DNA of 64,000 nt. Source: Streptomyces mobaraensis (GTDB taxonomy: Bacteria; Actinomycetota; Actinomycetes; Streptomycetales; Streptomycetaceae). Where the stretch lies: positions 1,178,001 through 1,242,000 of the forward strand of contig NZ_CP083590.1 of the NCBI RefSeq assembly GCF_020099395.1, written 5' to 3'. The notes beneath the pieces were generated by a model. It had not been told where the DNA came from. It did not search any database and was given only the letters and a program-made list of their open reading frames with translations. A program made the position numbers and the translations under genes. Shown here one piece after another: positions 38,580-56,458 of this stretch. Each line of letters begins with the position of its first letter. Position 1 is the first letter of the stretch.

Positions 38580-39548
38580 ATGAGTGACTTTGCTGATCTT
38601 GCTCGTAGGGCACTGCGGGATAGCGGCTATTCCATGAAGGCCGCCGCGCGTGCGATGAATTACGATGCCGCCTATTTGTCGCGAGTGCTCAACGGCAAAC
38701 AGAACCCGTCGGCAAAGCTTGCGGCATCAGTGGATGAGCTTGTCGGAGCAGGGGGCGCATTGGCTGCGACTGTGCTGGACGATGACAAAAAGTCAAGGGT
38801 CACCCGAAGTGCTGCCAACCCTTCGCGTCTGGATGCCGGAACCGTGGATGCACTTGCAGGAGTTTTGGCCGCCTACCGGCGATTGGACGACTCGGTAGAG
38901 CCAAAGTCTGTCATACCAGCGACCATGACTCAGGTGAAGGAAGTCACCCGAATCCTCCGGGGTGCCCGGGGGCCGTACAGGGACCGGCTCGCCGAAGTCG
39001 TCTCCGAGTGGGTCCAGTTCGGGGGGTGGATGCTCGCTCAAGTCCGCAAGGATGACCAAGCGGTAGGGCTGCTTAATGACGCTCTGGAATTGGCGGACGA
39101 AATCGGCAACGGTACCCTTGCGGCCCAAGCCCTGAATTTCAAGGGCTACATCGCCCGGCAGCAGAACAGGCCGCAGGGAATCGCCCGCTGGTTCTCTGCC
39201 GCTGCCAACACCCCGGGTGCGCACCCGGCCCAGCGAATCGGGGACTACCTTCAAGCAGCAGCCGGAATGGCGTCCCTGGGAGAACGTGATGCGGCGCTAC
39301 GCTTGGTCGAAGACGCGGAGAAATTGACGGATAAGGCGGCTTCCCTCCCCCCGCCGGATACCGCCTACTGGCTGACGCCCGCATTCAACCGTTTGAACAT
39401 GGGGCTCTGCACTCTTGAACTCGGGCGTTACAGCGAGGCGACTGACCATCTGAGGTCCGGCCTCGCCGGACTGCCCGAAGAACTCCGGGACGCCCCTTGG
39501 TCATGGGAGCACAAGGACGCTCTGCGGAGGGCCGTAGAAGCGGCCTAG
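38580..39548 (+). CDS. XRE-family regulator with TPR-like C-terminal region
   Basis: The 322-aa protein has an N-terminal HTH (GYSMKAAARAMNYDAAYLSRVL, with NGKQNP) and a helical repeat region resembling TPR (AVGLLNDALELADEIGNGTL, AALRLVEDAEKL, YSEATDHLRSGLAGL). Such proteins often sense peptides or partner proteins in actinomycetes. Codon use is clearly less G+C-rich than the core genome, suggesting recent acquisition. GAGG precedes ATG 38580. It is divergent from the chain of tiny ORFs. Confidence 0.85.
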   Translation: MSDFADLARRALRDSGYSMKAAARAMNYDAAYLSRVLNGKQNPSAKLAASVDELVGAGGALAATVLDDDKKSRVTRSAANPSRLDAGTVDALAGVLAAYRRLDDSVEPKSVIPATMTQVKEVTRILRGARGPYRDRLAEVVSEWVQFGGWMLAQVRKDDQAVGLLNDALELADEIGNGTLAAQALNFKGYIARQQNRPQGIARWFSAAANTPGAHPAQRIGDYLQAAAGMASLGERDAALRLVEDAEKLTDKAASLPPPDTAYWLTPAFNRLNMGLCTLELGRYSEATDHLRSGLAGLPEELRDAPWSWEHKDALRRAVEAA

Positions 39549-40694: not shown

Positions 40695-41924
40695 TCAGCG
40701 CAGGGGACGGAAGGTCTGCCGGATGTCGTGGACCCAGGCGCCCGGGTTCTCCCAGGGGCCGAAGTGGCCGCCCCGCTGGTGCACGTTCACCTCGCGCAGA
40801 TCGCCGTAGACGTGCGGGGTCATGCCCTGGCGGATGGCTGCGTCGTACTGCTCGGGGGTGTCGATGCCCGGGGAGGAGTGGTCGCCCAGGTGGAAGGTGA
40901 AGCTGGTGGGCACGGTGATGGCCGGGGCGGTCCAGCGGTCCTTCGGCTCCGGGTAGAGGTGGGCGTTCTTGTAGGCGCGGATCGAGGAGCCGATGGACTG
41001 GGTGACCCAGTAGATCGTGGCCGTGGTCAGGATGTGCTCGTCGGGGTAGACGTCCTCGAAGACGGCGCTCTGGTCGCTCCAGGACTTCCACCGCTTGAGG
41101 ATCCAGGCCAGCATCCCGGCGGGTGAGTCGTTCAGGCCGTGGGTGAGGGTCTGGCCGTCCAGGCAGTGCACGGCCAGGTGGGAGGCGAGAGTGTCCCGGA
41201 AGCCTTCCAGGTCCGCGACCAGCTGGGGGCTCGCGTCCTCGGGGATGTCCTGGCCGGCGGTGATGTCCCAGTAGCGGTAGCCCTGGAACGCGGGGAGCGG
41301 CGCGGGCATGCCCAGGTGGACGCCGATGACCGACTCGGGGTAGCGGTGGGCGAGCTAGGCGGCCACCAGGGCGCCGTAGTCGGAGCCGCAGACCGCGTAC
41401 CGGTCATGGCCCAGGGTCTCGGTCATCAGGGTGTGGAAGCGGTCGGCCATGTCGACGTAGTTCTCCCGCCCGTTGGTGAGCGGGGTGGAGAAGCCGAAGC
41501 CCGGCAGGGACGGGGTGATCACCTCGAAGGCGTCGGCCGGGTCGCCGCCGTGCGCGGCCGGGTCGGCGAGCGGGCCCAGGACGCGGGTCCAGTCGAGGAA
41601 GGTCCAGGGCCAGCCGTGGGTGAGGATCAGCGGCGTGGGGGCCGGGCCCTTGCCGGGCTCGCGCACGAAGTGCACCGGGGTTCCGCCGATGTCGAGCCGA
41701 TGGTGGGTGTATGCGGTGTTCAGGCGCTCCTCGGCGGCCCGCCAGTCGAACCCGTCGGCCCACAATCCCACCAGCCGACGCAGGTACGCCGTGGACAGAC
41801 CGTACTTCTCGTCCTCGTTGTCCAGGTCGGGGGCGAAGCGGGTGGCTCGCAGCCGGGCCCGCAGGTCGTCCAGCTCATCCTGCGGGATCTCGATCCTGAA
41901 CCGCGTGAGGTCGTCAGCCGTCAT
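40695..41924 (-). pseudogene. Epoxide hydrolase interrupted by a single in-frame amber codon
   Basis: The frame from ATG 41924 to 40695 encodes a microsomal-type epoxide hydrolase (EHN N-terminal region FRIEIPQDELDDLRARLRAT, then the alpha/beta hydrolase with nucleophile Asp in CGSDYGALVAA and a late His in GGHFGPWENP). TAG at 41355-41357 replaces the codon where Gln is expected (VAA-stop-LAHRYPES). Both halves stay in the same frame with normal codon use, so the lesion is recent, a read error, or suppressed. Intact length would be 409 aa. Confidence 0.85.
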
Positions 41925-42328: not shown

Positions 42329-43747
42329 TCACCCCCGCCGGAACTCCGGCACCCGCTTCTCGTACAGCCACGGCGCCAGGACGTCCTCCACATCCCGCGC
42401 GGCAACGCGCCCCGCGTGCGTGAGGAACCCGGGGGTGTCCGCGCTCCCGCCCCGCCGCGCCTCGTGCCACGTCCGCAGTGTGCGGAAGAAGGGCTCGTCG
42501 CCGACGGCCAGGCGGAGGGCGTGCAGGGCGCACGCCCCCCGCACGTACACCCGGTCGTCGAAGAGGTGCCGCCGCCCGGGGTCGGCGATGCGCAGGTTCT
42601 GGCGGCGGCCCGCCAGATCCGTCCGGGAGCGGCGGGCGAGGGTGTCGGCGTCGTCCTCGCCGAGGTGTTCGGACCAGAGCCACTCCGCGTAGGTGGCGAA
42701 GCCCTCGTTGAGCCAGATGTGCTGCCAGTCGGCGAGGCTGACGCTGTTGCCGAACCACTGGTGGGCCGTCTCGTGGGCGACGAGCGTCTCCCAGCCGCGC
42801 CGGCCGTCCATGTGGTTGCGGCCGAAGACGGAGAGGGTCTGGTTCTCGACGGGGGCGGCCAGTTCGGCGTCGACGACGGTGACGCCGTAGGACTCGAAGG
42901 GGTAGGGGCCGAAGAGGTCCGTGTAGAGGCGGAGGATGCGGCCCTGGCGGGCGAGGTCGTGGCGGACGCGGTCGACGGCCCCGGCGGGGCAGGCGACGTG
43001 CACGGGGACGGGCGCGCCGGAGACGTCCTCCTCGGTCCAGGTCTCGCGGTGGAAGCGGCCGGTGTAGAGGGCGGCGAGGTAGCAGGCCATCGGGCCGGGG
43101 TGGTGGTAGGTCCAGCGGGCGGCGCCGTCCTCTTCCCGGTGGTCGACGAGGGAGCCGTTGGCGAGCGCGTCGTAGCCGGCGGGGACGGTGATCTCGAAGG
43201 TGTAGGCGGCCTTGTCGTCGGGGCGGTCGTTGCAGGGGAACCAGGACGGCGCCCCCACCGGCTGGGAGGCGACGAGCGTGCCGTCGTGCTCGTCGCCAGT
43301 GCGGTCCCAGCCGATCGGGCCGTACGGCGAGTGGACGGGCCGGGGACGTCCGCCGTAGCGGACGTCCAGAACAAAGGGGCGGCCCGGTTCGAGGGTGCGG
43401 TCGGCGGTGACGCGGAGTTTGCCGTCGCGGTGGCGGAAGGGGACCGGGCGGTCGTCGAGGAGGACCTCGTCGACCGTGAGTTTCGCCAGGTCGAGTTCGA
43501 CGGAGTCGAGCGCGCCGTTGGCCGTCGCCTCGATCCGGGCGCGGCCGTCGAGCCGGTGGCGGCGCGGGTCGTAGTCGAGTTCCAGGTGGTAGGCGAGGGT
43601 GCGGTGGGCGTACGAGCCGTGCCGCGGGAAGTAGCGCTCCTCGCGGGCGGGCCGGCGGCGGGCGCCGCCGCCCACGGCGGCGGCGGTCACCGGGACGGCC
43701 AGCGCCGCGAGGAGGACGCGGCGGCTGCAGGTGTGTCGTGCGCCCAT
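42329..43747 (-). CDS. M1-family zinc aminopeptidase, partner of the Pls-type synthetase
   Basis: The 472-aa protein has an N-terminal export signal (RRVLLAALAVPVTAAAVGG), an M1 N-terminal beta domain, and the zinc site HETAHQWFGN with the third ligand in LNEGFATYAEWLW. Its ATG is 1 bp after the stop of the Pls-type gene, so they form one operon. Streptomyces epsilon-poly-lysine producers carry a zinc aminopeptidase that degrades the polymer; this gene is a good candidate for that role, by context. It is shorter than full M1 enzymes, as in other secreted Streptomyces members. Confidence 0.88.
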   Translation of the reverse strand: MGARHTCSRRVLLAALAVPVTAAAVGGGARRRPAREERYFPRHGSYAHRTLAYHLELDYDPRRHRLDGRARIEATANGALDSVELDLAKLTVDEVLLDDRPVPFRHRDGKLRVTADRTLEPGRPFVLDVRYGGRPRPVHSPYGPIGWDRTGDEHDGTLVASQPVGAPSWFPCNDRPDDKAAYTFEITVPAGYDALANGSLVDHREEDGAARWTYHHPGPMACYLAALYTGRFHRETWTEEDVSGAPVPVHVACPAGAVDRVRHDLARQGRILRLYTDLFGPYPFESYGVTVVDAELAAPVENQTLSVFGRNHMDGRRGWETLVAHETAHQWFGNSVSLADWQHIWLNEGFATYAEWLWSEHLGEDDADTLARRSRTDLAGRRQNLRIADPGRRHLFDDRVYVRGACALHALRLAVGDEPFFRTLRTWHEARRGGSADTPGFLTHAGRVAARDVEDVLAPWLYEKRVPEFRRG

Positions 43748-43748
43748 G

Positions 43749-46700
43749 TCACGCGGCGGCCTCTCGCTGGGGGACGGCCGCGGGCCGCTGTCCGGCGATC
43801 GGGTTGCCCGCCCAGCGGGTGCCCGGCGGGACGGTCTCGCCGCGCATGACGAGGGAGGACGGTGCGATGGCGGTGTGGGCGCCGACGGTGGTGCCCGGGA
43901 GCACGATGCCGTGCGGGCCGAGGGAGGCGCCTTCGGCGAGGTGGACGGTGTCCATGCGCATGATCCGGTCGTGGAAGAGGTGGGTCTGGAGGACGCAGCC
44001 GCGGTTGACGGTGACCCCGTCGCCGAGGGTGATGAGGTCGGTCTCCGGCAGCCAGTGGGTGTCGCACCACACACCCCGGCCGATGCGGACGCCCAGGGTG
44101 CGCAGCCACCAGTTGAGCACGGGGGTGCCGGTGAAGGGTCCCGCCAACCAGGGGACGGCGAGGGATTCCACGAACGTGTCGAAGAGTTCGTTCCGCCAGA
44201 CGAAGGAGCTCCACAGCGGGTGTTCGCCGCTCCGGAAGCGGCCCATGAGCAGCCACTTGGCGGCGGTGGCGAGGAGTCCGGCGAGGATGCCGCCGGCCGC
44301 CAGCAGGGGCGCGGCCACCAGTGCGGCGAGGCCGAGGCCGCCGTGGTCGAAGGCCCACTGTTCGCCGATCAGCACCATGTCGGCCAGGGCGAGGCCGCAC
44401 ATGAGCGGCAGTATCCGGCACAGTTCGACGGCGGCGCGGGCCAGGACAAGTCTGCGCGGCGGGGTGAAGGTGCGTCCGGCGTCGGCGACGGTGGCGACGC
44501 GGGGCAGCGGCATGGCGGGCCGGCCCAGCCAGGAGGTGCCGGGCTCGCTGTGCTCGGGCGCGTCGGAGAGGACGCCGACCAGGCCGTGGTCGGGGACGGA
44601 GCGGCCGGGGCCGATGATGCCGGAGTTGCCGAGGAAGGCCCGGCGGCCGACGTGTGCGGTGCCCAGGCGGAGCCAGCCGCCGCGCAGTTCGTAGGGGGCG
44701 ACGAGGGTGTCGTCGGCGAGGAACGCGCCGTCGTCGACGGTGAGCAGGGACGGCAGCGGCAGGACGGTGGAGAGTTCGGCGCCGCGGCCGATCCGGGCGC
44801 CGAGCATCCGCATCCACCCGGGGGTGGCGAGGCTGGCGTAGACCGGGAAGAGGTTGCGGCGGGTGCCGTCCAGCAGCCGGGTGATCACCCAGGCGCGCCA
44901 GGCGACGCCGCCGCAGGCGGGGTGGAGGCCGGCGCTGATGCCCCGGTTGAGGACGCGGACCGTGCCGGCGACGACGAGCATCCAGCAGACCGTGGTGACC
45001 GCGGTGAGGACGGGGACGGCGAGCAGCAGGCGGACGGCGACCGTGGTGAGCGAGGCGCTGTCCTTGATCAGCCAGAAGGTGGCGGCAAGGGCGGGCGCGG
45101 CGGCGAGGACGGGCAGCAGGGGCATCCCGAGCAGGGCCAGGGCGTAGGCGGCGGACCAGCGCCGGGAGCGCTCGCGGCGGGGCTCCGGCCAGTCCTCGGC
45201 GGGGCGGACGGGGCCGTTCGCGTGGTGGGCGGCGGCGTCCGGGCGGGCGGGCGATCCCACCCAGGTCTCGCCCGCGGGGACGTGGCCGTCGAGGCAGGCG
45301 CCGGGCGCGAGTTCGGCGCCCGCGCCGAGGGAGGAGCCGGGCATCAGCATGCTGCGGTGGCCGGCGCGGGAGTCGGCGCCGAGCCGGACCGGGCCGATGT
45401 GCAGGGTCTCGCCGTCGATCCACCAGCCGGCGATGTCGGCCTCGGGCTCGACGCTGGCCCCGTCGCCGAACTCGGCGAGGCCGGTGACCGGGGGCATGGC
45501 GTGGAGGGAGACGTTCCGGCCGGCGGCGCAGCCGAGGGCGCGGGCGTACCAGCGGGCCCAGGGGGTGCCCATCAGGGAGGGCACGCCGAAGGCGGCCACG
45601 GTGCGTTCGGCGGTCCACAGCCGCAGGTGGACGCGGCCGCCGCGCGGGTGGGCGCCAGGGGTGATCCCGCGGGTGAGGACGCGGGCGGCGAGGGCGCCGA
45701 TCGCGAACCGGCAGGGGGCGCTGAACAGCAGCAGCCAGGCGAGGGCCACCAGCCACCAGGAGGTGTGCGGTGCCCAGGCCTGCGGCGCGAACACGCCGAG
45801 GAGGTTGTCGGCGACGGCGAGGCCGGTCAGCAGGCGCAGGCCCTGGACGCCGTAGAGGACGGTCTGCACCAGGATCTGCGCGGCGCCGGTGCGGCGGCGC
45901 AGCGGGCGGACGACCCGGCGGGGGCCGGTGTCCTCGACGGGGGTGTCGAGCGCGTCGATGTGCGCGGCCATGTCCCGGAGGACGGTGTTCCGGTAGAGGC
46001 CGGCGACGGAGACGCCGGGGTGGTGCTCGCGCAGGGCCGAGGCCATGCGGGCGGCGGTGAGGCTGGTGCCGCCCATGGTGACGAAGTCGGAGTCGGCGCC
46101 GGGCCGGACGCCGAGCAGCTCCTCCCAGAGGTCGGCGAGCCGGCCGGCCGTGCCGTGCAGCTCTTCGCCCGCTCCGGGGGCGGCGGCGCCGGTGGTGGGG
46201 AGCGGCCAGGGCAGGGCGTCGCGGTCGACCTTGCCGGAGGTGCGGGTGGGCAGCTCGTCGACCTCGGCGAGGACGGGGACGAGCGCGGCGGGCAGCCGTT
46301 CGGTGAGCCGGGCGCGGGCGGCGGCCGGGTCGAACCCGGGGGCGGGGACCAGGTAGCCGACGAGGAGCTGGGAGCCGGACGGGGTGGTGCGGACGGCCGC
46401 CGCGGCGCCGTGGACGTCGGGGAGCTCGCCGAGGGCGGCGTCGATCTCGCCGAGCTCGATCCGCCGGCCGCCCAGTTTGACCTGGTCGTCGGCGCGGCCG
46501 GTGAAGACCAGGCCCTCCTCGTCGGCCCGGACGAGGTCGCCGGTGCGGTAGGCGCGGTCGCTGCCGAGGGCCGGGCAGGGCGGGAAGCGGTCGGCGTCCT
46601 TGGCGGGGTCGAGGTAGCGGCCGACGCCGACGCCGGCGATCACCAGTTCGCCCTCGGCGCCGTACGGTACGGGCTCGCCGTCCTCGTCGACCACGGCGAG

Positions 46701-47702
46701 CTCCCAGCCGTCGAGCGGCAGGCCGATACGGACGGGCTCGCCGGGCTCCATGCGGGCGGCGCAGGCGACGACGGTGGTCTCGGTGGGCCCGTAGGTGTTC
46801 CACATCTCGCGGCCGGGGACGGCGAACCGCTCGACGAGGCCGGGCGGGCAGGCCTCGCCGCCGACGATCAGCAGCCGCACCCGGTCCAGGGACTCCCGGG
46901 GCCAGAGGGCGGCGAGGGTGGGGACGGTGGAGACGACGGTGACGGCCCGCTCGACGAGCCAAGGGCCCAGCTCGTGGCCGGCTCTGACCAGCGAGCGGGG
47001 GGCGGGGACCAGGCAGGCGCCGTGCCGCCAGGCCAGCCACATCTCCTCGCAGGAGGCGTCGAAGGCGACGGACAGGCCGGCCAGCACCCGGTCGCCGGGG
47101 CCGAGCGGCTCGTCCTGGAGGAAGAGGGCGGCCTCGGCGTCGGCGAAGGCGGCGGCGCTGCGGTGGGAGACGGCGACGCCCTTGGGTGCGCCGGTGGAGC
47201 CGGAGGTGAAGATGATCCAGGCGTCGTCCTCGGGCAGCGGCTGCCGGGGGCCGGCGGCCCCGGGCTTTCGGCGGCCGGGGGCGAGCGCGCCGTCGCCGGT
47301 GAGGACGGCGCAGACCTCGGCCTCGCGGAAGACGGTGGCGGCCCGCTCCTCGGGGTCGTCGGCGTCGACGGGGACGTAGGCGGCGGAGCAGCGGAGGACG
47401 GCGAGGATGGCGAGGTAGAGCTCGGCGGTGCCGGAGGGGATCCGGACGCCGACCCGGTCGCCCGGCCCGATCCCGGCCCGGCGCAGCCGCTCGGCCCGGG
47501 TCTCGACCTCCGCGCACAGCTCCCGGTAGGTGAGGACGCCGGTCTCGGTGTCGAGGGCCGGGGCGTCGGGGTGGCCGGCGGCGGTGGCGTCGAGGACGTC
47601 CATCAGGGTGCGCTCCCCCGGCGGCGGGGCGCTGCCGTACAGCGCCCGCCCCGCCGGCGGCGCCAGCGGGGTGGGGGTGGAACTGGAGAGAGTCGGGGAC
47701 AT
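43749..47702 (-). CDS. pls: Pls/PosA-type single-module NRPS, probable poly-lysine-type synthetase
   Basis: The 1317-aa protein is very close to the 1319 aa of epsilon-poly-lysine synthetase as I recall it. Domains: adenylation (residues about 30-500; IIFTSGSTGAPKG, FDASCEEM near 211, NTYGPTETT, TSGKVDRD near 491), carrier protein (VTMGGTSLTAAR, Ser near 546), then membrane segments alternating with three condensation-like/left-handed-helix blocks (RGITPGAHP..., RGISAGLHP..., FRSGEHPLW...). There is no thioesterase. The binding pocket, aligned by hand to GrsA, reads D-A-E-S-I-G-T-V-V-K, near the lysine code of BacB. ATG 47702 has GAGGCGTAAGG upstream. Confidence 0.9.
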   Translation of the reverse strand: MSPTLSSSTPTPLAPPAGRALYGSAPPPGERTLMDVLDATAAGHPDAPALDTETGVLTYRELCAEVETRAERLRRAGIGPGDRVGVRIPSGTAELYLAILAVLRCSAAYVPVDADDPEERAATVFREAEVCAVLTGDGALAPGRRKPGAAGPRQPLPEDDAWIIFTSGSTGAPKGVAVSHRSAAAFADAEAALFLQDEPLGPGDRVLAGLSVAFDASCEEMWLAWRHGACLVPAPRSLVRAGHELGPWLVERAVTVVSTVPTLAALWPRESLDRVRLLIVGGEACPPGLVERFAVPGREMWNTYGPTETTVVACAARMEPGEPVRIGLPLDGWELAVVDEDGEPVPYGAEGELVIAGVGVGRYLDPAKDADRFPPCPALGSDRAYRTGDLVRADEEGLVFTGRADDQVKLGGRRIELGEIDAALGELPDVHGAAAAVRTTPSGSQLLVGYLVPAPGFDPAAARARLTERLPAALVPVLAEVDELPTRTSGKVDRDALPWPLPTTGAAAPGAGEELHGTAGRLADLWEELLGVRPGADSDFVTMGGTSLTAARMASALREHHPGVSVAGLYRNTVLRDMAAHIDALDTPVEDTGPRRVVRPLRRRTGAAQILVQTVLYGVQGLRLLTGLAVADNLLGVFAPQAWAPHTSWWLVALAWLLLFSAPCRFAIGALAARVLTRGITPGAHPRGGRVHLRLWTAERTVAAFGVPSLMGTPWARWYARALGCAAGRNVSLHAMPPVTGLAEFGDGASVEPEADIAGWWIDGETLHIGPVRLGADSRAGHRSMLMPGSSLGAGAELAPGACLDGHVPAGETWVGSPARPDAAAHHANGPVRPAEDWPEPRRERSRRWSAAYALALLGMPLLPVLAAAPALAATFWLIKDSASLTTVAVRLLLAVPVLTAVTTVCWMLVVAGTVRVLNRGISAGLHPACGGVAWRAWVITRLLDGTRRNLFPVYASLATPGWMRMLGARIGRGAELSTVLPLPSLLTVDDGAFLADDTLVAPYELRGGWLRLGTAHVGRRAFLGNSGIIGPGRSVPDHGLVGVLSDAPEHSEPGTSWLGRPAMPLPRVATVADAGRTFTPPRRLVLARAAVELCRILPLMCGLALADMVLIGEQWAFDHGGLGLAALVAAPLLAAGGILAGLLATAAKWLLMGRFRSGEHPLWSSFVWRNELFDTFVESLAVPWLAGPFTGTPVLNWWLRTLGVRIGRGVWCDTHWLPETDLITLGDGVTVNRGCVLQTHLFHDRIMRMDTVHLAEGASLGPHGIVLPGTTVGAHTAIAPSSLVMRGETVPPGTRWAGNPIAGQRPAAVPQREAAA

Positions 47703-47999
47703 GGCCTTACGCCTCAATTCGACGGTGGGTTGCGGACGCCTCTCGGACGTCCGCACCCACAGACGTCGCTCCGCGCCCACGGGTTCGTAAAAGCGTTGCC
47801 AACGTTCCGCATATCGAACGAGTGGCGGGGGATGCCTCGGGCGCACTCTTTTCCCACGGTACGTGCCGTTTCACCGGAAAACCATGGATATCGGCCGGAC
47901 GGGCGACGGTGACGGCTTGGTGAAGAGTTGACCTGCGGCGAAGGTTCTTTTCGGGCCGAAGTTCGCCCGAAAGGGTCAGAAGAAGAGGGAACCGTGCGC
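47703..47999. other. Upstream region of the pls operon
   Basis: 297 bp without a gene, between the pls start and the end of the ABC-F gene. It is locally less G+C-rich near 47780-47960 and should contain the pls promoter. A short palindrome CGTTGCCAACG at 47794-47804 may be an operator. No clear -35/-10 pair could be set. Confidence 0.4.
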
Positions 48000-49637
48000 T
48001 CAGTGCTCCATAATCCGGCCGTCCTCGACCCCGATCCGCCGGGTGGTGTGCACCGCGTCCAGCATCCTCCGGTCGTGCGTGACCAGCAGCAAGGTGCCGG
48101 AGTACGAGGCGAGGGCCGACTCGAGCTGCTCGATGGCCGGCAGGTCAAGGTGGTTGGTGGGCTCGTCCAGCACCAGCAGGTTGACGCCGCGGGCCTGGAG
48201 CAGCGCCAGCGCGGCGCGGGTCCGCTCGCCCGGTGAGAGGGTCACGGCGGGGCGCAGCACATGGCCGGCCTTGAGGCCGAACTTGGCGAGCAGCGTCCGC
48301 ACGTCGGCGGGCACCAGCTCGGGGACGGCCGCCCCGAACGCGTCCAGCAGCGTCTCCGTGCCGAAGAACAGGGCCCGCGCCTGGTCCACCTCGCCGACGA
48401 CCACGCCCGGCCCGAGCGCGGCGGAGCCCTCGTCCAGCGGGAGCCGGCCGAGCAGCGCGGCGAGCAGGGTGGACTTCCCGGAACCGTTGGCGCCGGTCAC
48501 GGCGACCCGGTCGGCCCAGTCGATCTGGAGGTCCACCGGACCGAGGGTGAAGGAGCCGCGGCGCACCACGGCACCGCGCAGGGTGGCCACCACGTTGCCC
48601 GACCGGGGCGCGGCGGCGATCTCCATCTTGAGCTGCCACTCCTTGCGCGGCTCCTCGACGGTCTCCAGCCGCTCGATGAGCCGCTCGGTCTGCCGGGCCT
48701 TCGACGCCTGCTTCTCGCTGGCCTCGATCCGCGTCTTCCGGGTGATCTTATCGATGTCGTTGCCCTTGCGGCGGGCGTTGCGGACGCCCTTCTCCATCCA
48801 GTTCCGCTGGGTGCGGGCGCGGGCCTCCAGGGCGGCGCGGGTGTCCGCGTACTCCTCGTACGCCTCGCGCGCCTGCCGGCGAGCCCGCTCGCGCTCCTCC
48901 AGGTAGGAGCCGTAGCCGCCGCCGAACAGGGTGATCTGCTGCTGGGCCAGGTCCAACTCCAGCACCTGGTCGACGGTGCGGGTGAGGAACTCGCGGTCGT
49001 GGCTGACCAGGACGGTGCCGGCGCGCAGCCCGGTGACGAAGTTCTCCAGGCGCTCCAGGCCGTCCAGGTCGAGGTCGTTGGTGGGCTCGTCGAGCAGGAA
49101 CACGTCGTAGCGGCTGAGCAGCAGCGACGCGAGGCCGGCGCGCGCCGCCTGGCCGCCCGACAGGTCCGTCATGGGCCGGTCGAGGCCGACGGTGAGACCG
49201 AGCGAGCCGACGACCTCCTCCGCCCGCTCGTCCAGGTCGGCCGCGCCGAGCGCCAGCCAGCGCTCCAGCGCGACGGCGTACGCGTCGTCCGCGCCGGGCG
49301 CGCCCGCGGCCAGCGCCTCGGTGGTGGTGTCGAGGGCGGTCTGCGCGGCGGCGACGCCGGTGCGCCGGGCCAGGAACGCGCGGACCGTCTCGCCCGGCCG
49401 CCGCTCCGGCTCCTGCGGGAGGTGCCCGACGGTGGCGGTGGGCGGGCTGATCCGGACCGAGCCCTCGTCGGGCTCCGCGAGCCCGGCGAGCATCCGCAGC
49501 AGGGTGGACTTCCCGGCGCCGTTGGCCCCGACGAGCCCGATCACGTCACCGGGGGCGACGACGAGGTCGAGCCCGGCGAAGAGGGTGCGGTCGCCGTGGC
49601 CGGCGGCGAGGTTCTTGGCGACGAGGGTGGCGTTCAT
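48000..49637 (-). CDS. ABC-F family ATPase (ribosome-associated or resistance type)
   Basis: The 545-aa soluble protein has two ABC domains: Walker A GANGAGKST and GANGSGKST, signatures LSGGQAARAGLA and LSPGERTRAALAL, both with DEPTNDLD/DEPTNHLD, joined by a charged linker (about residues 240-330). There are no membrane segments. ABC-F proteins act on the ribosome, as translation factors or antibiotic-resistance proteins; the antibiotic is not predictable. ATG 49637 lies 10 nt after TAGAGT. Confidence 0.92.
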   Translation of the reverse strand: MNATLVAKNLAAGHGDRTLFAGLDLVVAPGDVIGLVGANGAGKSTLLRMLAGLAEPDEGSVRISPPTATVGHLPQEPERRPGETVRAFLARRTGVAAAQTALDTTTEALAAGAPGADDAYAVALERWLALGAADLDERAEEVVGSLGLTVGLDRPMTDLSGGQAARAGLASLLLSRYDVFLLDEPTNDLDLDGLERLENFVTGLRAGTVLVSHDREFLTRTVDQVLELDLAQQQITLFGGGYGSYLEERERARRQAREAYEEYADTRAALEARARTQRNWMEKGVRNARRKGNDIDKITRKTRIEASEKQASKARQTERLIERLETVEEPRKEWQLKMEIAAAPRSGNVVATLRGAVVRRGSFTLGPVDLQIDWADRVAVTGANGSGKSTLLAALLGRLPLDEGSAALGPGVVVGEVDQARALFFGTETLLDAFGAAVPELVPADVRTLLAKFGLKAGHVLRPAVTLSPGERTRAALALLQARGVNLLVLDEPTNHLDLPAIEQLESALASYSGTLLLVTHDRRMLDAVHTTRRIGVEDGRIMEH

Positions 49638-49647
49638 GTCGGGGCCG

Positions 49648-49653
49648 ACTCTA
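49648..49653 (-). promoter_or_regulatory. -10-like TAGAGT before the ABC-F gene
   Basis: TAGAGT lies 10 nt before the ABC-F ATG and no ribosome-binding site is present, so the leader would be very short. Confidence 0.35.
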
Positions 49654-50743: not shown

Positions 50744-52705
50744 TCAGGGCAGTCGCGTCAGCCGTGGCGCCCCCAGCCCGTACGGGTGGGCCGGCGCGGC
50801 CGGGGGCCGGACGCCGCCCTTGGTGGCGCGGGCGAACGCCGCGTAGCCGCCGACCAGCGGCAGGCTGGCCGAGGTCGAGGCCAGGTCGAGGGTCAACCGC
50901 GGGGTGGTGGAGGCCGGTTCGATGAGGCCGCGGTCGGTGCCCGCGACGATCAGCGCCAGCCGGTGGCCGGCCGGGACGACGTGGTCGGTCGCGGCGAGGT
51001 CCAGGGTGATGGTGTAGGGGGTGCCGGGGGCGACGGCCCGGGTGCGCTTGCCGTTCCCCCAGTGGCCGAGGTCGGCCCAGCCGCGGCTGAAGACCGTGTG
51101 GTCGACCCGGGCCGTCTTGGCCTCGGTCCGCTGGAAGCAGCCGGTGTCGCCGGGGGTGCCGGCGCCCCAGCAGGTGCGGTCGGCGAGGGTGGTGATGCCC
51201 TCGGCGTCGTCGGCGTAGTCGCGGATGGCGGCCGGGCCGAGGTCGACGAGGACGGCCGAGAGGTGGGCGGACGCGGTGGACGGGGTCACCCGCAGCCGGA
51301 CCGTGGAGGAGCCGGAGAGCCGCAGGTCACGGGCGAGCGGGCGGGTGACGAAGCCGGCCTTGGACGGGGTGCTCCGGTCGATCGCCGCCGCCCAGTCGTT
51401 CTCGCCGAGCGCGGGGTCGTCGGTGAACTCGGCGGTGCTGCCCGGTCGCGCGGGGTCCAGGCCGAGGCTGCCCGGACCCTGCGCGGATCCCGCCGCCGGG
51501 CGCAGCGTGGTGGCCCGGGTGCCGGCGGGCGGCCAGACGCGGTCGGTGGTCCACTGGTCGGGCGCCCGCTCGACGTCGGCCATCGGCTCGCGCTCGACGC
51601 CGTTGTCGTAGCCCATCAGGTAGTGGTCGAACCAGCGGTGCAGCGTGCGCACCCAGGCGTCGCGCCGGAAGTCGAACGGGTCGACGTGCCCGGTCTGCGA
51701 AAGCCAGATCTTCCGTTCGACGCCGTGCGCGGCAAGCGCGTCCCACCACTGGCCGAGGTGCTTGGTGCGGACGTTGAGGTCCTGCATGCCGTGCACGGCG
51801 AGGACGCTGGCACGCACCTTGCCCGCGTCGCGGACGTAGTCGCGCTCGCTCCACAGCGGCGTCCAGTCGCCGTTGCGGGGCGCGCCCTCGACGAGTTTCC
51901 GCTGGACGTCCTGGCAGCGGGCGCGCGCCTCGGCGCTCTCCACGCGCGAGGCGAGGCCGTCGGGGCCGCTGCCGAACAGCGCGGCGCCCTTGGCGAAGTA
52001 GTAGTCGTACCAGGAGCTGATGGCGCCGATGGGGACGATCGTCTTGAGGCCCTGGACACCGGTGGCGGCGACGCCGTTGGCGATCGTGCCGTCGTAGCTC
52101 TTGCCGATCATGCCGACGGCGCCGGTGGTCCAGTCCGCGTTCACCGGCGCGTTCCCGGTACGCGAACCGTACGCGCGGGCCCGGCCGTTGAGCCAGTCGA
52201 CGACGGCCTTGGCGGACTGGACGTCCGAGCGCCCACCGATGTCGACGCAGCCGTCGGAGCGGTTCGTTCCGGCGAGGTCGACGAGCACGACGGCGTAGCC
52301 GCGCGGGACGAAGTAGTTGTCGTAGAAGAGGGGGAACTGGACGGGCTTCCCCTGGGCGTCGTACGTCTTCTTCTGGCTCTCGTTGCCGCGTCCGCAGCAG
52401 GAGTAGTACGGGCTGGCGTCCATGATCACGGGAACGCGGACGCCCTTCTCGGCGGCCTCGCGCGGCCGGATGATGTCCACGGCGACCCGGTCCGTGCCGC
52501 CGGCGCGGGTGGGCGCCTCGACCCAGACGGACTCGCGCACCGCGCGGTCGTAGGAGTAGACGGGTCTGCTCTCGCCGGCGTGTCTGCCGGGGGGCGCGGC
52601 CTGGGCCGCGCCCGGTGGTACGGCGAGGACGGCCAGCAGCGCCACCAGGGCCGCGAGGACGGAAGTGGTCCAGGATATGCGGGTGTTCCGCGTGGGTTTC
52701 GGCAC
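50744..52705 (-). CDS. Secreted Xaa-Pro dipeptidyl-peptidase (S15-like), paralogue 2
   Basis: The 653-aa protein has a signal peptide (VLAALVALLAVLAVPPGAAQA, cut after AQA), an alpha/beta-hydrolase core with catalytic Ser in MIGKSYDGTIANG, and a C-terminal jelly-roll domain of the X-Pro peptidase type. It releases Xaa-Pro dipeptides from peptides outside the cell. GTG 52705 has only a weak ribosome-binding site. It is a close paralogue of the upstream gene, 87 bp away on the same strand. Confidence 0.9.
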   Translation of the reverse strand: MPKPTRNTRISWTTSVLAALVALLAVLAVPPGAAQAAPPGRHAGESRPVYSYDRAVRESVWVEAPTRAGGTDRVAVDIIRPREAAEKGVRVPVIMDASPYYSCCGRGNESQKKTYDAQGKPVQFPLFYDNYFVPRGYAVVLVDLAGTNRSDGCVDIGGRSDVQSAKAVVDWLNGRARAYGSRTGNAPVNADWTTGAVGMIGKSYDGTIANGVAATGVQGLKTIVPIGAISSWYDYYFAKGAALFGSGPDGLASRVESAEARARCQDVQRKLVEGAPRNGDWTPLWSERDYVRDAGKVRASVLAVHGMQDLNVRTKHLGQWWDALAAHGVERKIWLSQTGHVDPFDFRRDAWVRTLHRWFDHYLMGYDNGVEREPMADVERAPDQWTTDRVWPPAGTRATTLRPAAGSAQGPGSLGLDPARPGSTAEFTDDPALGENDWAAAIDRSTPSKAGFVTRPLARDLRLSGSSTVRLRVTPSTASAHLSAVLVDLGPAAIRDYADDAEGITTLADRTCWGAGTPGDTGCFQRTEAKTARVDHTVFSRGWADLGHWGNGKRTRAVAPGTPYTITLDLAATDHVVPAGHRLALIVAGTDRGLIEPASTTPRLTLDLASTSASLPLVGGYAAFARATKGGVRPPAAPAHPYGLGAPRLTRLP

Positions 52706-52792
52706 GGGCGGGAGCGTACGCGCGTCGACCGCGGTGCAGAAGGGGTGCGGGACGGCCTCCGGGAGGCGGGGGCCGCCCCGCGTACCGTCGTC

Positions 52793-54706
52793 TCAGGTCC
52801 GGTCGTCGCCCGTGGCGCGCGCGAAGGTCCGGTAGCCGCCGACCACGGGCAGGTCCGCCGCGCTGCCGGCGAGGTCCACGGTCAGCTTCGGCGTGGACGC
52901 CGGGGCGTCGATGTACGGCTTGTCCGTACCGGCCACGATCAGGGCCAGCCGGTGGCCGGCCGGGACGACGTGGTCGGCCGTGCCGAGGTCGAGGGTGATG
53001 TCGTACTGCTTGCCGGGCGTGATCTCCCGCCGGGGGAAGCCCGCGTAGTGGCCGAGGTCGGCCCAGCCGCGGCTGAAGACGGTCTGTTCGACCTTCTTGG
53101 TGGCGGGGACGGCCTTCTTGAAGCAGCCGGTGTCCCCGGCGGTGCCGCTGCCGAAGCACTCCTTCTCCGGGAGGACCGAGACGCCGCCGCCGTTCTTGTA
53201 GTCCCGGATGGTGTCCGGGCCGAGGTCGACGAGGACGGCCGAGAGCGTCGCCGAGTTCGTGGTCGGGGTGACCTTCAGGGTCACCGAGCCGTGTCCGGAC
53301 AGCCGGAGATCGCGGTGGAGCGGCCTGGTGGTGAACGCCGCCTTGGCCGGGGTCGGCCGGTCGGCGTCCGCCGCCCAGTCGAGCTCGCCGAGGGCGGGGT
53401 CGTCGGTGAACTCGGCCGTGGCACCGGCCTTCGCGGGCTCGGTCCCCAGCGTTCCCACCCCCGCGACCGGCCCGGCGGCCGGGCGCACGGTGGCGCGGCC
53501 GGTGCCGCTCGGCGGCCAGACCGGGTCGGTGGTCCACTGGCCGGGGGCCCGCTCGACGTCGGCCATCGGCTCGCGCTCGACGCCGTTGTCGTAGCCCATC
53601 AGGTAGTGGTCGAACCACCGGTGGAGCGTGGTCACCCACTCCTGGCGGCGGAACTCGAACGGGTCGGTGTGCGCCGCCGTCGAGAGCCAGATCTTGCGCT
53701 CGACGCCGTTCTCGGCCAGGGCGTCCCACCACCGGTTGAGGTGCTGGGTACGGACGTTGAGGTCCTGGAGGCCGTGGACGGCGAAGACGCTGGCACGGAC
53801 CTTGTCGGCGCCGCGGACGTAGTCGCGGTCCTGCCACATGCCGGTCCAGTTGCCGTCGCGCGGCGAGCCCTCGACCAGCGCCCGGTCCATCGCCTTGCAA
53901 CGGGCCTTCACCTCGTCGGTCTCGACGTACCGCGCGTGCCCGGCGATGCCCTCGGTGGAGTTGGTGGAGGCGCCTTTGTAGAAGTAGTAGTCGTACCAGG
54001 AGCTGGGCCCGGAGATGGGGACGACGGTCTTCAGGCCGTCGACGCCGGTGGCGGCCAGGCCGTTGGCGATCGAGCCGTCGTAGCTCTTGCCGATCAGGCC
54101 GACGGAGCCGGTGGTCCAGCCGGCGTCGGTGCCGCCGTCCCCGGTGCGCGAGGTGTAGCCCCGCGCCCGGCCGTTGAACCAGTCGACGACCGACTTGGCC
54201 GCCGCGATGTCCGAGGGGCCGCCCGCGTCCGAGCAACCGTCGGAGCGGTTGGTCCCCGGCTGGTCGACCAGGGCCACGGCATAGCCGCGCGGGACGAAGT
54301 AGTTGTCGTAGTAGAGCGGGAACTGAAGGGGCTTGCCCTGCTCGTCGTAGGTCTTGACCTGGCTCTCGGGGCCCCGGCCGATGCTCTGGAAGTACGGGCT
54401 GGCGTTCATGATCACGGGGACCTTGCGGCCCTGCTCGGCCGCTTCCCGGGGCCGGATGATGTCCACGGCCACCCGGTCGGTGCGCCCGTCGCCGTCGCTG
54501 TCCTTCCCCGTCTCCACGTAGACGGTCTCCCGGACGGCCCGGTCATAGGAGTAGACCGGAGTGCTCTCCTCGCCGCTCCGGCCGGAGGACGCGGCCTGCG
54601 CCGGCGCCGGTGCCGCGACCAGAGCGGCCAGGAGCGCGGTGGCGGCGGCGGGAACCGTTCGTTTCAAGAGACTTCTGTTGCGCATGTGACGCATGGTGTT
54701 CTTCAC
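52793..54706 (-). CDS. Secreted Xaa-Pro dipeptidyl-peptidase (S15-like), paralogue 1
   Basis: The 637-aa protein has a signal peptide (ALLAALVAAPAPAQAA), catalytic Ser in LIGKSYDGSIANG, and the later active-site segment AAHTDPFEFRR containing the likely His. The C-terminal domain matches the tandem paralogue. DNA around 53550-53620 is nearly identical to 51570-51640, so duplication or conversion is recent. GTG 54706 follows TAGCGT by 6 nt, suggesting a leaderless mRNA. It is the first gene of the pair. Confidence 0.92.
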   Translation of the reverse strand: MKNTMRHMRNRSLLKRTVPAAATALLAALVAAPAPAQAASSGRSGEESTPVYSYDRAVRETVYVETGKDSDGDGRTDRVAVDIIRPREAAEQGRKVPVIMNASPYFQSIGRGPESQVKTYDEQGKPLQFPLYYDNYFVPRGYAVALVDQPGTNRSDGCSDAGGPSDIAAAKSVVDWFNGRARGYTSRTGDGGTDAGWTTGSVGLIGKSYDGSIANGLAATGVDGLKTVVPISGPSSWYDYYFYKGASTNSTEGIAGHARYVETDEVKARCKAMDRALVEGSPRDGNWTGMWQDRDYVRGADKVRASVFAVHGLQDLNVRTQHLNRWWDALAENGVERKIWLSTAAHTDPFEFRRQEWVTTLHRWFDHYLMGYDNGVEREPMADVERAPGQWTTDPVWPPSGTGRATVRPAAGPVAGVGTLGTEPAKAGATAEFTDDPALGELDWAADADRPTPAKAAFTTRPLHRDLRLSGHGSVTLKVTPTTNSATLSAVLVDLGPDTIRDYKNGGGVSVLPEKECFGSGTAGDTGCFKKAVPATKKVEQTVFSRGWADLGHYAGFPRREITPGKQYDITLDLGTADHVVPAGHRLALIVAGTDKPYIDAPASTPKLTVDLAGSAADLPVVGGYRTFARATGDDRT

Positions 54707-54910: not shown

Positions 54911-56458
54911 GTGCGTCACAGACTCCTCGTTCCGAGCGCCGCCGCCGCTGCCGCCTTCCTGCTGCTCGCGGTCCCCGCGTCGGCGGCCGACGGCACGCCG
55001 GGCGCGCCGGGCATCGGAGACTCCTACTACCCGGACGCCGGCAACGGCGGCTACGACGTCTCCCACTACGACCTGAGGCTCAAGTACCAGCCGAAGAACG
55101 ACCGGCTGGAGGGCACCGCGACCATCACCGCCACCACGACGCAGGCGCTGTCCCGCTTCAACCTCGATCTGCTGCTGGACGTCAGCGACGTCCTGGTCAA
55201 CGGCAAGAAGGCCGCGTTCAGGAAGACGGGCACCCACGAGCTGGAGATCACTCCGGCCGCCTCCCTCCCCGAGGGCAAGCAGATCACCGTCGTCGTCCGG
55301 TACAGCGGCACCCCGTCCGCGGTGAAGGTGAACGGCTCGTCCTCCTGGCAGCGCACGCCGGACGGCGGGATCGCCGCGCAGGAGCCGGAGTCGGCCGCCT
55401 GGTGGTTCCCGAGCAACGACCACCCGCGCGACAAGGCCACGTACGACATCTCGGTGTCCGTCCCCGACGACGTACAGGCGATCAGCAACGGCGTCCTCGC
55501 CTCGAAGACCTCCAAGCTCGGCTGGACGCGCTGGAACTGGCGCTCCACCAAGCCGCAGGCGAGCTACCTCACCACGCTGGCCGTCGGCAAGTTCGAGATC
55601 ACCACGGACACCACGGCCAACGGCCTGCCCGTGATCAACGCCTACAGCAAGGACCTGGGCGACAACCTGGAGCCGGCGAAGGCGAGCGTCGAGCGGAGCG
55701 CCGAGGTCATCGACTGGGAGAGCACCGTCTTCGGCCCGTACCCGTTCACGGCCGTCGGCGGCTACGTGCCCAACGTGCCCACCCGGTTCGCCCTGGAGAC
55801 GCAGACCCGGCCGTTCTACAGCCCGGCGCCGTTCGCCAACGGCGCGAACGTCTCGCTCATCGTGCACGAGCTGGCCCACCAGTGGTTCGGCGACAGCGTC
55901 TCGGTGAAGAACTGGCGGGACATCTGGGTCAACGAGGGCTTCGCCACCTACGCGCAGTGGCTGTGGTCGGAGAAGGAGGGCGAGGGCACGGCTCAGCAGC
56001 TCGCCGACTACACCTACGCGCAGTCCCCGGCGGACGACAAGTTCTGGACGGTCAAGCCCGGTGACCCGGGCGCGGACAAGCAGTTCGACGGTGCCGTCTA
56101 CCAGCGCGGGGCCATCGCCCTCCAGGCGCTGCGCAACACGGTCGGGGACAAGGTCTTCTTCGAGACGCTCCGGGGCTGGACGGCGAAGAACCGGTACGGC
56201 AACGGGTCCGTGCAGGACTTCGTGGCCCACGCCGAGCAGGTCTCCGGCAAGAAGCTGAAGCCGCTCTTCGACACCTGGCTGTTCACCACGTCCAAGCCGA
56301 GCGCGGCGGAGGCGGCCAAGGCGGGGATCGGCCTGCCGGCGAAGGCCGGGGCGAAGGCTCAGGCTCGTAAGGGCGGTGCGTCGCTCGCCGCGAAGAAGCC
56401 GGCGCGGCCCGCGTCCTGGCAGAAGATCCAGGAGGCACTCCGGACGCACGGGCACTGA
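54911..56458 (+). CDS. Secreted M1-family metallopeptidase
   Basis: The 515-aa protein has a signal peptide (LLVPSAAAAAAFLLLAVPAS, then AAD), a beta-rich N-terminal domain, and the zinc site VHELAHQWFGDSV with WVNEGFATYAQWLW. The C-terminal tail after residue 460 is Ala/Lys-rich. It resembles the M1 peptidase of the pls operon but is a separate gene. GTG 54911 has GGAG 6 nt upstream. It is divergent from the Xaa-Pro peptidase pair. Confidence 0.9.
   Translation: MRHRLLVPSAAAAAAFLLLAVPASAADGTPGAPGIGDSYYPDAGNGGYDVSHYDLRLKYQPKNDRLEGTATITATTTQALSRFNLDLLLDVSDVLVNGKKAAFRKTGTHELEITPAASLPEGKQITVVVRYSGTPSAVKVNGSSSWQRTPDGGIAAQEPESAAWWFPSNDHPRDKATYDISVSVPDDVQAISNGVLASKTSKLGWTRWNWRSTKPQASYLTTLAVGKFEITTDTTANGLPVINAYSKDLGDNLEPAKASVERSAEVIDWESTVFGPYPFTAVGGYVPNVPTRFALETQTRPFYSPAPFANGANVSLIVHELAHQWFGDSVSVKNWRDIWVNEGFATYAQWLWSEKEGEGTAQQLADYTYAQSPADDKFWTVKPGDPGADKQFDGAVYQRGAIALQALRNTVGDKVFFETLRGWTAKNRYGNGSVQDFVAHAEQVSGKKLKPLFDTWLFTTSKPSAAEAAKAGIGLPAKAGAKAQARKGGASLAAKKPARPASWQKIQEALRTHGH

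Follow-up and report, generated by a model that had tools for sequence, protein, structure and literature searches.

Two described systems stand closest to the locus studied here. In Streptomyces albulus, PldII is reported to be the main enzyme degrading epsilon-poly-L-lysine (epsilon-PL), to be translationally coupled to the neighbouring pls and to be located outside the membrane; its repression lowered epsilon-PL tolerance and lengthened the polymer, and its cleavage mode is given in two ways, as endo-type and as stepwise from the N-terminus (PMC9223678). The pls-peptidase operon of Corynebacterium variabile is a distant one from a coryneform host, with a synthetase 51% identical to Streptomyces Pls, which made epsilon-PL in S. 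coelicolor although the polymer is reported as undetected in C. variabile itself (PMC8117764). According to the same source, the synthetases confirmed by experiment include the Pls of S. albulus, S. celluloflavus, S. roseoverticillatus, Kitasatospora aureofaciens and C. variabile, and a pls-peptidase operon is already given there as the context that sets lysine Pls apart from other Pls-type synthetases. The gamma-poly-DAB and beta-poly-DAP synthetases are described as having the architecture of Pls but different gene contexts (PMC8117764). PosA, the delta-poly-L-ornithine synthetase of Acinetobacter baumannii, shares the A-T-terminal domain family and a three-block beta-helix model that is already in print, but differs in having Met for Ala at the second pocket position and in being encoded by a single-gene operon (PMC10522769).

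The locus described here lies in a window of 64,000 nucleotides, positions 1178001-1242000 of contig 1 of the Streptomyces mobaraensis genome (7.67 Mb, 99.9% complete), and all coordinates below are those of the window. The pls gene (43749..47702, minus strand), which runs from the ATG at 47702 to the TGA at 43749, encodes a putative epsilon-poly-L-lysine synthetase of 1317 amino acids with adenylation (A), carrier (T) and terminal polymerisation domains, assigned from the open reading frame, the TIGR02353 and 7WEW matches and its relatives. It is followed on the same strand by a gene for a pldII-type M1 metallopeptidase of 472 amino acids with a HETAH...E zinc site (42329..43747), assigned from the open reading frame and its Pfam and NCBIfam domains. 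The junction reads TGA-c-ATG, placing the M1 start codon at 43747, one base past the pls stop, a spacing that permits coupling; the initial annotation had given these coordinates, lengths and the one-base gap correctly, as the open reading frames confirm. The S. albulus pair is like that of the window in its A-domain pocket (that of structure 7WEW), family, architecture and coupled M1 gene directly downstream (PMC9223678), and the C. variabile operon is like it in architecture, pocket type and gene pair (PMC8117764). We consider it very probable that the window pair is a pls-pldII operon for epsilon-PL. It appears to be an ordinary operon because the A-domain pocket is that of 7WEW and the coupled peptidase is as in S. 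albulus and C. variabile, and the locus is a typical, already described pls-pldII system, its only novelty being that of a further copy.

The synthetase passes the NCBIfam model TIGR02353, 'Pls/PosA family NRPS', scoring 659.9 bits over residues 608-1302 where 423.1 is the cutoff, and it also matches the NCBIfam amino acid adenylation model, PF00501 (AMP-binding) and PF00550 (carrier) of Pfam and, just below the cutoff, AMP-binding_C of Pfam. There is no thioesterase among the Pfam and NCBIfam families listed for it (for NCBIfam, the best 25 of 100), so that the domain make-up of the Pls type read earlier from the sequence, with adenylation and carrier domains and without a thioesterase, is borne out. 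The A domain takes up approximately residues 31-500 (46203..47612, minus strand; Pfam, the 7WEW alignment and relatives) and the carrier domain residues 521-582 (45957..46142, minus strand; Pfam and alignments), in which Ser547 of GGTSL is the likely phosphopantetheine site. No second pls was found in the genome, as the 51 other matches of the Pls query, the best with 248 bits, all end by residue 610 and thus cover the A and T part.

The best PDB match of the synthetase is 7WEW, the adenylation domain of epsilon-poly-L-lysine synthase, with 803.6 bits, and the next are gramicidin synthetase chains with 386 bits. The ten pocket residues, DAESIGTVVK at positions 215, 216, 219, 258, 279, 281, 303, 311, 312 and 491, are all the same in 7WEW. 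The GrsA pocket columns were placed on Pls by way of sequence motifs, and the identity with 7WEW was read straight from the alignment. This alignment to a known epsilon-PL synthase returns the same ten residues that had been read by hand and supports the choice of lysine as the probable substrate in the initial annotation. The identity with 7WEW and the Ala at the second position weaken the caveat given there, that a different cationic amino acid could be the substrate. The PosA study associates this position with the substrate, Ala going with lysine, Met with ornithine and Phe with DAP or DAB, and reports that the M218A change made PosA nearly ten times as efficient with lysine (PMC10522769). 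The S. noursei synthetase (locus L028), which is close to 7WEW (1015 bits), is about 73% identical to the window Pls over the whole protein and 76% identical in the A domain.

The peptidase has N-terminal and catalytic M1 domains, with VEN at 300, HETAH at 325 and Glu348 18 residues on, a zinc site that fits HExxH-18-E, and its N-terminus, judged by eye and not with a predictor, resembles an export signal. It is 58-94% identical to the M1 peptidases that follow pls in those of the loci L017-L048 that have one, and 40-67% identical to those in later loci. The M1 peptidase of S. noursei L028 is 60% identical to it; the candidate GTG start of that gene overlaps the pls TGA, in contrast to the one-base gap in the window. 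The candidate S. noursei open reading frame is 1401 bp long and the length reported for S. albulus pldII is 1404 bp, the comparison with the latter gene being one of length only. The proposal that the M1 enzyme is a polymer-degrading partner agrees with the place and family reported for pldII (PMC9223678), and on both counts the window M1 probably corresponds to that gene.

A pattern scan of a genome collection with six peptide patterns yielded 289 relatives, and we retained the 80 best. The pocket DAESIGTVVK is present in 79 of these 80 loci, the exception being L094 with DAESIGTVIK. M1 genes were counted in the 76 loci whose downstream flank reached 1.4 kb or more, four loci being left out for their short flanks. 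The projected M1 start lies no more than 150 nt from the pls stop in 61 of the 76, and in three others (L076, L077 and L087) an M1 gene lies on the same strand 584-4570 nt from pls. No M1 match was found in the remaining 12, L057 with 1.7 kb downstream and 11 with more than 7.8 kb; because of these 11 long flanks, the lack of a nearby M1 gene is real for most of the 12. The pls-M1 pair is therefore not obligatory, given the 12 loci without an M1 gene and the three with a distant one. Of 199 genomes of the genus, 110 score above the TIGR02353 cutoff, a number that includes terminal domains without an A domain. We took the 30 best-scoring matches among the 199 genomes, which is not a random sample, and 26 of them combine DAESIGTVVK with an M1 gene directly downstream. 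The other four (L103, L113, L115 and L124) have no in-frame A domain and open reading frames of 854-1071 amino acids, and no M1 match lies in the flank of about 1.4 kb in any of them.

Ten of 70 plasmid records, hand-picked for spread from the 40 listed, served as a contrast set. In nine of these relatives the pocket is of another type, with DLE, DFE or DME as its first three residues, and none of the nine has an M1 match within the 1.7-2.5 kb downstream. The tenth, plasmid locus L134, has DAESIGTVVK and is annotated 'epsilon-poly-L-lysine synthase Pls', followed with a 4 bp overlap by 'M1 family metallopeptidase'. The relatives without a lysine pocket have other neighbours, which include a phosphopantetheinyl transferase (L130 and L133), a TauD dioxygenase (L131) and, in L135, a DAB transaminase together with an aspartate kinase; L127 and L128 are unannotated in this region. 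The comparative result of our analysis is that, among the sampled loci, the presence of an M1 partner tracks the lysine pocket.

In a tree built by a quick method from 41 of the 111 aligned rows, the window Pls pairs with that of S. huiliensis (96% identity, support 99). Both belong to a clade of 21 rows (support 100) that also holds S. noursei, S. roseoverticillatus, S. celluloflavus, S. griseofuscus and S. hiroshimensis. The window enzyme thus groups among the Pls of epsilon-PL producers, the producer status being that reported for two species of the clade, in other strains (PMC8117764). A second clade with the putative lysine pocket, comprising S. galbus, S. longwoodensis, S. yangpuensis and all six genus rows in the tree, has members 57-60% identical to the window Pls, and we counted the presence of the pocket in this clade too against our reading.

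In the mechanism that we propose, the A domain would activate L-lysine with ATP and load it onto the carrier domain, and the membrane-embedded terminal domain would then add lysines singly through isopeptide bonds from carboxyl to epsilon-amino group. Chain growth without a thioesterase would give a secreted antimicrobial homopolymer, which the coupled, exported M1 peptidase would trim, shielding the producer. Expression, product, chain length and peptidase export are what we infer for the S. mobaraensis strain, which the locus would mark as a probable maker of a food-grade antimicrobial polymer.

It could be argued that the synthetase is a Pls-family enzyme for another diamino acid (ornithine, diaminobutyrate, diaminopropionate or beta-lysine), since the reports on such enzymes describe the same architecture (PMC10522769, PMC8117764). 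We regard this as very improbable. The window pocket, DAESIGTVVK, is that of 7WEW and differs from the pockets of the nine other-type relatives, which start with DFE, DLE or DME, and its second residue, Ala, points to lysine, where Met would go with ornithine and Phe with DAP or DAB (PMC10522769). In addition, the scanned neighbours include no transaminase, aspartate kinase or aminomutase, unlike those of L135.

A different concern is that the pair could be pls-pldII by descent and yet take no part in an epsilon-PL cycle, either because it is silent in this strain or because the M1 enzyme has another substrate; this would be compatible with the family assignment, and we think it unlikely. That a pls gene can be silent follows from the C. 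variabile case, where epsilon-PL was not detectable according to the report though the pls works in S. coelicolor (PMC8117764), and M1 peptidases are common, with seven matches in the genome besides the pls-linked one. Against this stand the 61 of 76 loci in which the M1 gene comes right after a lysine-type pls, the absence of an M1 gene from all nine sampled loci of other-type Pls, and the reported degradation of epsilon-PL by S. albulus PldII (PMC9223678).

The terminal polymerisation domain, residues 585-1317 (43752..45950, minus strand), was delimited by TIGR02353, hydropathy, AlphaFold2 and Foldseek, and combines hydrophobic helices with three predicted beta-helix blocks. Six membrane helices, arranged as three pairs around three tandem blocks, are expected for Pls, and we judged them by hydropathy and the model, with no dedicated predictor. 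Five hydropathy peaks fall in the domain (649-677, 849-881, 881-920, 1085-1116 and 1121-1154) and another, at 94-115, falls in the A domain; a sixth helix, 603-638, is present in the AlphaFold2 model only, and the third helix pair is not separated by DSSP. The model of residues 585-1317, built with 39 sequences, has a mean pLDDT of 88.6 and a pTM of 0.89 and shows three repeats, each of helices and short, evenly spaced beta strands. The sequence of block three matches hexapeptide acetyltransferases, best SACOL2570 with 6e-6, and block one has weak matches to them at 0.019 and above. Serine, galactoside and maltose acetyltransferases are among the 35 Foldseek matches with E <=0.001 (best 4e-5), with low TM-scores of at most 0.15 by query and 0.48 by target in the best 50 matches listed. 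The blocks thus appear to resemble left-handed beta-helix acyltransferases, a handedness assigned by way of these matches and the printed PosA model (PMC10522769), and Pls-type terminal blocks have been termed acetyltransferase-related (PMC8117764). The initial annotation had counted three membrane-linked condensation-like blocks; true NRPS condensation domains are ruled out by the matches to hexapeptide acyltransferases in both sequence and fold.

The third block contains a candidate catalytic residue of the polymerisation domain, His1241 of QTHLFHD (codon 43980..43982, minus strand). Gln1239, His1241 and Asp1245 are identical in all 111 aligned rows (the window, the 80 loci and the 30 genus loci), including the four proteins that lack an A domain. 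All ten further relatives, those from plasmids, retain Gln and His, and the position of Asp1245 is Asp in eight of them and Glu in two. His1241 aligns with the His of 'ATHPL' in SACOL2570, which we take to be the catalytic one in galactoside and maltose acetyltransferases, and the QxH motif is not evident by eye in blocks one and two of the window Pls. We tentatively suggest, at somewhat less than even odds, that block three could be the polymerisation site, with His1241 (QxH...D/E) as the base responsible for activating the acceptor epsilon-amine, and that blocks one and two, from which the motif may have been lost, would act as a scaffold or a channel. A literature search on the terminal-domain histidine found nothing that looked related and was too narrow to establish absence in print. 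As His1241 is invariant across all pocket types seen, it is a direct mutagenesis target for the bond-forming mechanism.

The 5′ leader or promoter region of pls (47703..47999, minus strand) shows conserved blocks in eight aligned loci, the window and L017-L023, around GGAAC-TTGG, CGAACC, CGTCTGT and CGTCGAA, which may be promoter or regulator sites. On the upstream side pls is adjoined by an ABC-F ATPase gene (48000-49652, minus strand; profile match), and inspection of the alignment by eye shows DNA resembling the 3′ end of this gene also in front of pls in L017-L020, L022 and L023. Downstream, the M1 gene is adjoined by an epoxide hydrolase gene (40695-41924, minus strand; Pfam and open reading frames), apparently split over two frames: 41355-41924 carries the N-terminal part with a Pfam EHN match, and 40695-41309, which has no Pfam match, may be the remainder. 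The split may reflect a decayed gene or a sequencing error. With these two genes as the direct neighbours, the earlier observation that no exporter or regulator is adjacent holds; a helix-turn-helix gene of the NsdA family (38580-39548, plus strand; family match) lies 2.8 kb past the M1 peptidase. Beyond the ABC-F gene lie two tandem genes for Xaa-Pro dipeptidyl-peptidase-like (CocE/NonD) proteins (50744-54706, minus strand; profile match) and a second M1 peptidase gene (54959-56455, plus strand), the one of the seven further genomic M1 matches that is in the window, about 7 kb from the pls start, with a product 36% identical to the pls-linked M1. The CocE/NonD pair adjoins this second M1 gene, forming a peptidase-rich stretch near pls.
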